From an archaeon (GTDB taxonomy: Archaea > Thermoproteota > Nitrososphaeria > Nitrososphaerales > Gagatemarchaeaceae), in NCBI GenBank assembly GCA_021786575.1, contig JAJYMY010000002.1, forward strand, positions 1 through 64,000: 64,000 bases of DNA. Reading direction: 5' to 3'. Numbering within the stretch: position 1 is the stretch's first letter; each line of letters begins with the position of its first letter. Below the pieces are notes generated by a model that was given only the letters and a program-made list of their open reading frames with translations, did not search any database and had not been told where the DNA came from. The position numbers were made by a program, and so were the translations under genes. Of this stretch, positions 9,003 to 38,257 are shown piece by piece.

Positions 9003-9046
9003 CCAAACTCCCCGCTTTAGGTAGGAACCTACTGATATTTGGTTGC

Positions 9047-9266
9047 CTCGCCCGGCTCTCAGGAGGGATGTGGCTTTCCTTCGACGGCGGCCTCGTAGCG
9101 TTCCTTCAGCGCCGCCGTCCCGGTTCGCCCTCGGTTTGGCCTTCGTGAAGTCCAGGTTTCCCCGGCTCTACGCGCCACCATCCCGCTCGCGGATGGTACC
9201 AGGCGCTAAGGCTTTCCCTGGCGCCTCTTCTTCTCCGCGAATCCATCCTTCTCCTGGCCGGACGAG
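9047..9266 (-). ncRNA. Candidate structured non-coding RNA with paired ends
   Basis: The 10 nt at 9257-9266 pair with those at 9047-9056 over their full length (one G-U), closing a 220-nt region; a second closing helix pairs GGATG/CATCC and GGAG/CTCC just inside. Between them I find four hairpins: 9202-9225 and 9152-9165 (both with GAAA-type tips when read on the minus strand), 9177-9197 (ACCATCC/GGGATGGT) and 9083-9119 (9-bp GACGGCGGC stem). The GNRA-like loops favour the minus strand. A TATA-like AATTAATATGC at 9288-9297 fits transcription from about 9266. I find no SRP helix-8, RNase P or B12-box signature. It could be a stand-alone RNA or a leader of the phosphoribosyltransferase gene. 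Confidence 0.55.
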
Positions 9267-9297
9267 TAAAATATAGAATACACGGTGCATATTAATT

Positions 9298-37950: not shown

Positions 37951-38257
37951 ATTCCGACGCGCGCCGGCTGTAGTCCTCCTTCTGTTCTAGACGGGATTCC
38001 GCTCAGCGGCCTACCCTGGCCTGTCACAGGCACTTCATCGGCCACGTTTGGCCTTGCTCCGCACGGGTCAGCCGTTTCACCCCGCATCCCACCGACCTCA
38101 AGGTCGCCCTATCACAGCTCATGGTGGGCCGGGTCTCGTTTCTGTTCTGGAGCCGACCGTCTCCGATCGCGCCTCCTGGCGCCGTGCGTCCTGTAGTGAG
38201 GGAGGAACTTCCCCAGGAGATCCCCGTGGCCCGTCCACCGGCTCACGTCGGTCCCAT
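37949..38257 (-). ncRNA. rnpB: RNase P RNA, archaeal type A-like
   Basis: Catalytic RNA for tRNA 5' maturation, about 309 nt. Conserved regions in order on the minus strand: CR I GGGGAAGTTCCTCC (38200-38214), GGGTGAAACGGC (38071-38083), GGAGCAAGGCC (38051-38061) and the CR V strand AGAACAGAAGGAGGACT ending near 37974-37990. CR I and CR V pair to form P4, including the conserved bulged U (AGT-T-CCTCC with GGAGG-ACT). The ends pair as P1 (CCGACG/CGTCGG). A TATA-like GTTAACTG at 38272-38281 fits a start near 38255. Confidence 0.9.

Follow-up and report, generated by a model that had tools for sequence, protein, structure and literature searches.

Introduction

To our knowledge, few large structured RNA classes have come from archaea, and most orphan RNAs have no partner. 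What, then, is encoded by the 220 nt on the minus strand at positions 9047–9266 of the 64,000-nt stretch of archaeal DNA analysed here (the whole of which we call the window)? An initial annotation, made from the letters alone, proposed a multibranched structured RNA outside the known families and suggested that it might be a PRPP- or purine-related leader of the adjacent phosphoribosyltransferase gene. Is there truly an RNA here; is it a leader or a gene in its own right; and does it act with a protein? We find that the element founds an RNA class that matches no described family and has not been described before. Our preferred reading, to which we assign a probability of roughly 0.4, is that it is a standalone noncoding RNA and part of a ribonucleoprotein in which a linked PD-(D/E)XK-fold protein is the likeliest partner. 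The new RNA offers both a tight structural model and a candidate protein partner, and the existence of an RNA-dependent PD-(D/E)XK machine in archaea becomes a directly testable question. Its hosts include soil ammonia oxidisers, with cultured Nitrososphaera among them if the following identities are right: we take genomes G087, G109 and G111 to be those of Nitrososphaera gargensis, viennensis and evergladensis, respectively.

A conserved RNA with a four-way junction

Read from the minus strand, the founding element folds at −120.2 kcal/mol, compared with −85.0 ± 4.0 kcal/mol for 200 dinucleotide shuffles, none of which equals it (z −8.87), whereas the plus strand folds more weakly (z −3.22). 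The strand is also given by the homologues, in whose paired columns G-U cells outnumber A-C cells (349 versus 88 of 3,406 cells), and we therefore read the RNA from the minus strand. Its edges are marked by a drop in conservation: across 11 loci of the source genus, identity averages 0.90 within the RNA but falls to 0.47 over the 220 nt before it and to 0.56 over the 45 nt after it. The broader of our two covariance models, R2, scores the founder at 208 bits. Together with the covariation described below, the fold energy and the G-U excess bear out the structured RNA that was first proposed.

The predicted fold is a four-way junction, in which a closing stem, P1/P2, is joined to three arms. 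P1 pairs its 5′ strand (9257–9266) with its 3′ strand (9047–9056) over 10 bp, and P2, set off by a 3-nt bulge (9057–9059), pairs 9251–9256 with 9060–9065 over 6 bp; both the terminal stem and the second closing helix of the initial annotation are thus recovered. The multibranched form that it described also stands, but not its four or more internal hairpins, since the fold has three arms. Arm 1 (9186–9241) consists of an outer helix, an internal loop and an apical helix, with the conserved loop GGGAAAGCC at 9210–9218. Arm 2 (9132–9185) is the most variable and bears a GNRA cap in most homologues. Arm 3 (9072–9129) carries a symmetric internal loop, GGC-NAA-CC / GG-AAA-GCC, below a covarying helix. 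A near-invariant core strand, GAAAGCCACAU, occupies 9068–9078, and its partner GAGGGC lies at 9127–9132. GNRA-like loops had been described throughout; in the founder the loops are AAAG in arm 1, GAAA in arm 2 and GAACG in arm 3, and only that of arm 2 is a true GNRA loop.

How well do the homologues support this fold? Pairs were counted on model-fitted alignments, with plain MAFFT alignments of 16 and 31 relatives serving as checks. In the model-fitted alignment, which holds 60 loci of which 59 are distinct (L069 and L133 being one locus), 92.0% of cells in paired columns are standard pairs, as against 65.1% when shuffled and 30.4–40.1% when the partners are slid. Changes on both sides are seen at 53 of 59 pairs, and at 10 of 10 in P1. 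The covariation score is 0.751 versus 0.262 for shuffled and at most 0.098 for slid partners, and among the 39 column pairs, out of 22,508, that covary most strongly, 38 belong to the model. The plain alignment of 16 relatives has both-sided changes at 21 of 73 predicted pairs, and that of 31 divergent relatives, fitted to no model, has compensatory changes at 37 of 43, the very test that had been named in advance for this RNA. Covariation of this strength implies that selection acts on the folded RNA, and we regard the class as real with near certainty. A protein-coding gene at this site is rejected, as reading frames are mostly interrupted among the 60 homologues: each sense frame is open throughout in only 2–3 of them, and each antisense frame in 5–16.

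Conservation of sequence is concentrated in two places. The core of arm 3 (GAGGGC-NAAC with RGAAAGCCACAU) is nearly invariant, its GGC/GCC and first C-G pair being unchanged in 37 of 37 sequences, and the arm-1 loop is nearly invariant together with its surround, GGRAAGCC. In the f32 members, which belong to another class and are only ∼35% identical to the remaining members, P1, P2 and the arm-1 loop are kept and the arm-3 core is absent.

Probably a gene of its own rather than a leader

The TATA-like element that had been noted ahead of the stem is present: read from the sequence, a box A, TTAATA, lies at 9290–9295 on the minus strand, −29 to −24 from the stem. Among the 59 loci whose flanks are long enough, exact hexamers of TATA type are most frequent at −31 to −29, with counts of 7, 9 and 7 versus 0–2 elsewhere (one locus may be counted more than once in this peak), and A+T content is maximal at −30 to −26 and at −10 to −6. 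On the 3′ side of the same loci, T makes up 46–48% of the first 15 nt versus ∼30% further on, and 30 of 59 loci have a run of at least four T within 30 nt of the RNA, versus 10 of 59 at +60–90. As judged from these sequences, the RNA has a putative promoter signature of its own, a predicted start at P1 and, at roughly half of these loci, a T-rich, terminator-like tract.

Could the RNA nevertheless regulate the phosphoribosyltransferase (PRT) gene in cis, as a leader or riboswitch that senses PRPP or purines? This gene (PF00156; 8358–9002, minus strand) appears to be a neighbour and not a target. In the source genus, where both lie on the same strand, only 44 nt separate the RNA 3′ end from the start codon of PRT, which speaks for a leader. 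However, PRT lies directly 3′ of the RNA only in that genus and in its close relative G033 (together family f1), and in other families the RNA is followed by an unrelated gene or by one that runs the other way; no one gene family is found downstream, on the same strand, across the homologues. Conversely, G016, G012 and G002 have PRT without the RNA. A putative PRT promoter element, GCAACCAAATATC (9034–9046, minus strand), is kept in RNA-less relatives. The promoter-like CCAAATATC, which here separates the RNA from PRT, is kept beside PRT in the RNA-less, same-genus G016 and G012, so PRT probably has a promoter of its own; the position of this element between the two also argues against co-transcription. 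The T tracts that follow the RNA in 30 of the 59 loci are a further point against a leader. This explanation, which the original proposal called conceivable, is already largely refuted, and we hold it to be very improbable. The PRPP riboswitch of the ykkC group, which the PRT neighbour might suggest, is unlike the founder, which has no Rfam match and is not a leader. Given that the genes flanking the RNA vary widely between families and that relatives have PRT without the RNA, we read the RNA as most probably a gene upstream of PRT and separate from it, and we judge standalone action likely.

Comparison with known RNAs

Is the RNA a diverged form of something familiar? A search of Rfam 15 (4227 families) at curated or permissive thresholds gives no match over the RNA in the window, in agreement with the earlier view that no known family fits, and none over the RNA in 24 diverse homologous loci. 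In size and complexity the RNA resembles the large archaeal RNAs, and there is an ACA just past the arm-3 stem (GCC-ACA), as might be expected of a diverged RNase P RNA, SRP RNA or H/ACA guide. We reject each identity. An RNase P RNA (RF00373, 189.6 bits) is found elsewhere in the window, at 37959–38246, and not at 9047–9266; a separate SRP RNA (RF01857) is present in 10 of 10 genomes, the source genome among them. Archaeal H/ACA guides place the ACA ∼14 nt from the pocket and have a lower stem of at least 5 bp and a k-turn, whereas the lower stem of arm 3 has 3 bp and its loop lies 7 nt from the ACA. With this geometry, the separate RNase P and SRP RNAs and the absence of an Rfam match, we give a diverged known archaeal RNA almost no credence. 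Although the 64-kb window holds the RNase P RNA and a 5S rRNA, ARAGORN detects no tRNA gene there.

Several known systems come close all the same. Archaeal SRP RNA and RNase P RNA are likewise standalone structured RNAs, of 220–320 nt, that reside in ribonucleoproteins; they are near-universal, whereas the new RNA is patchy. The bacterial orphans OLE, GOLLD, ROOL and raiA are also large, highly structured, trans-acting and patchy, and were long without known function; the new RNA differs in being archaeal, in having no Rfam match and in being linked to a different protein. The omega-RNAs of TnpB and IscB are also structured RNAs beside a nuclease gene, with a RuvC protein where here it is PD-(D/E)XK; identity with a TnpB omega-RNA is rejected, a TnpB-like neighbour (named by eye) being found at one copy only, L095.

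The nearest described RNA is Tan1 (Thalassoarchaea ncRNA 1), which is also orphan, archaeal and of similar length, a comparison made by description only. Tan1 is reported as a 229-nt orphan noncoding RNA with a complex conserved structure, highly abundant in metatranscriptomes and known from marine group II Euryarchaeota through six homologues only (PMC5069720). The two RNAs, set side by side in this way, may be related. A conserved noncoding RNA of N. limnia and N. maritimus is mentioned without detail in PMC3043068. The new RNA is not described in the literature searched, which covers few subscription journals or preprints and includes PMC2864571, PMC5069720, PMC3486863 and PMC3043068.

Distribution, gain and loss

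By blastn, the RNA is in 18 of 61 close genomes (the source genome counted) and in 15 of 31 of its own genus. Two covariance models carried the survey through the order Nitrososphaerales: R1, built from 16 relatives, detects the RNA in 37 of 250 genomes, and R2, built from 37, in 66 of 366. The R2 matches include 45 of the 209 good genomes and are spread over 20 of 65 genera. When R2 is applied to the class, 52 of 300 genomes are positive, 1 of them outside the order, and when applied to the phylum, 13 of 300, of which 4 are outside the order, namely G440 and three f32 members. The RNA is seen in 3 of 44 genomes in the class of G533 and in 1 of 61 in that of G440. These counts are lower bounds because the strict filters used in scans of more than 40 genomes miss members: the RNA of G431 (43.2 bits) was overlooked by the genome scan and recovered beside the linked protein gene with filters off. 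A pattern scan of named genomes yields 30 stretches, 28 of them in records labelled Thaumarchaeota, Nitrososphaerales, Nitrososphaeria, Nitrososphaerota, Nitrosocaldus or archaeon, and the remaining two are due to chance. Outside archaea, the pattern matches L061 (Amylibacter), L083 (Chloroflexota) and the viral L087 are put down to chance, having neither a model match nor a matching fold. Absences also occur close to home. Loosening the filters does not bring out the RNA in the same-genus G016, G002, G008, G024 and G022 (88–97% complete) or in 12 Nitrosopumilaceae; it is present in G112, G144 and G170 of that family, whose RNA members fall in genera g45 and g64 only.

Paralogues lie at scattered sites, with a maximum of six copies in one genome, G178 (L154, L125, L126, L089, L090 and L127). 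Identity among these copies is 77–93%, and for 8 of the 15 pairs the similarity sets in no more than 4 nt from the RNA 5′ end. The outer helix of arm 1 is broken in L127, which has one insertion and one deletion there and may be decaying. The counterpart of the G087 locus in G109 has the same flanking genes and what looks like a degenerate remnant of the promoter and arm 1 only; G109 has an intact copy at another site.

Might the RNA then be a self-spreading element, with copies that move as a unit bounded by the RNA ends and serve no host function? Patchiness at the level of a single genus (where blastn detects the RNA in 15 of 31 genomes), the single match in the 61 genomes of G440's class, the sharp 5′ boundary of the diverged G178 copies, and the decayed-looking copy in G109 with an intact one elsewhere could all be read in this way. 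Sharp edges, however, are also produced by ordinary duplication, as flanks diverge faster than a constrained RNA, and the covariation points to selection on the fold. Neither a target-site duplication nor an encoded mobility gene is seen. Plasmids and phages (by blastn) and viral contigs (by two patterns) hold no match to the RNA bar the one chance pattern. A self-spreading element therefore seems improbable. In the reading that we prefer, the RNA and the linked protein would be an accessory pair, often lost or relocated, and not a housekeeping one.

A linked PD-(D/E)XK-fold protein

At a distance of 0–1.3 kb from the RNA, seven families from two classes (f1, f2, f3, f7, f8, f9 and f32) have a gene whose product, of ∼220 aa, bears the motif VKINHS. 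It is downstream and convergent in f7, f9 and f32, upstream and in tandem in f2 and f3, and behind PRT in f1; in G087, the f8 case, it is 1.3 kb from the RNA across a FadB-like gene (named by eye). The copy in the source genome (7730–8231, minus strand) is disrupted, with an in-frame stop codon as well as a change of frame, and is either a pseudogene or an assembly error; same-genus relatives have an intact gene.

Searches of Pfam, NCBIfam and PADLOC give nothing convincing for this protein, the only PHROGs matches are short and weak (best E 0.0006), their function unknown, and a sequence search of the PDB gives none. The AlphaFold2 model is confident (mean pLDDT 93.1), and its predicted element order, alpha-beta-beta-beta-alpha-beta, is that of the PD-(D/E)XK core. 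Foldseek assigns probabilities of 0.94–1.0 to SPO1766, XisH and HJC, with no match at E ≤ 0.001, and VIA aligns 106 positions to 3dnx with a modest Z of 8.4 and an rmsd of 2.8, its top rows agreeing. The best structural matches are SPO1766, XisH, Holliday junction resolvase and EndoMS, all of which we take to be members of the PD-(D/E)XK superfamily, and the assignment is based on topology, Foldseek probability and VIA Z. E55, D82, E95-x-E97 and K120 are invariant among homologues and suggest a putative active site with a shifted lysine: the E-I-E-T motif lacks the canonical Lys, for which K120, in the next helix, may stand in.

Are the RNA and the protein partners?

Among 40 genomes that we chose, which are phylogenetically non-independent, the protein is found in 20 of 21 RNA-positive (the disrupted source copy counted) versus 8 of 19 RNA-negative genomes (Fisher p 3.5e-4, a value that ignores phylogeny); a second table that counts G431 as RNA-positive is biased, because the presence of the protein was the reason for looking at that genome. 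Distances between the RNAs correlate with those between the proteins (r 0.82, 20 genomes), as common descent alone would also bring about. Our preferred reading runs as follows. The RNA would be a standalone, trans-acting structured RNA with its own promoter and a four-way junction; its rigid fold and near-invariant internal loops could be protein-binding surfaces, making it the RNA part of a ribonucleoprotein; and its most likely partner would be the linked PD-(D/E)XK-fold protein, which it might scaffold, direct or restrain.

The same RNA could well be standalone and trans-acting but independent of that protein, whether as a ribozyme, a regulator that another protein binds or the RNA of a ribonucleoprotein with an unlinked partner, and the linkage could be inherited synteny. 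All of the RNA, promoter and terminator evidence fits such independence. RNA and protein gene are unlinked in eight RNA-positive genomes (G109, G111, G112, G170, G240, G070, G387 and G440), the RNA is present and the protein absent in G052, and Nitrosopumilaceae retain the protein with no RNA alongside its loci, even with filters off. Moreover, the source genome keeps the RNA beside a broken candidate partner, unless this is an assembly error. On the other side, the pair is close in two classes despite changes in gene order and strand around it, and RNA and protein gene are jointly missing from four same-genus genomes, G016, G002, G008 and G024. The partnership is our best single guess, and the eight unlinked genomes, G052, the Nitrosopumilaceae and the broken source copy are why we hold it only tentatively. 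A bolder extension, in which RNA and protein form a two-part, phylum-wide system of archaea (a nuclease that depends on the RNA or is restrained by it) whose parts come and go together, with dispersed RNA paralogues in some lineages, we consider rather unlikely.

Other genes around the RNA and the protein

A block of TIGR00725-like, FadB-like and linked-protein genes (named by eye) is common to Nitrososphaera and Nitrosopumilaceae (L134, L187 and L197); the RNA lies within the block in G087 and not in the Nitrosopumilaceae examined. In G056, the SRP RNA gene (L044 2616–2925, minus strand) is ∼0.9 kb from the RNA. Near the Nitrososphaeraceae copies L143, L144 and L135 there is a gene for a small zinc-ribbon-like protein of ∼91–96 aa with a CxxC...CxxC arrangement.
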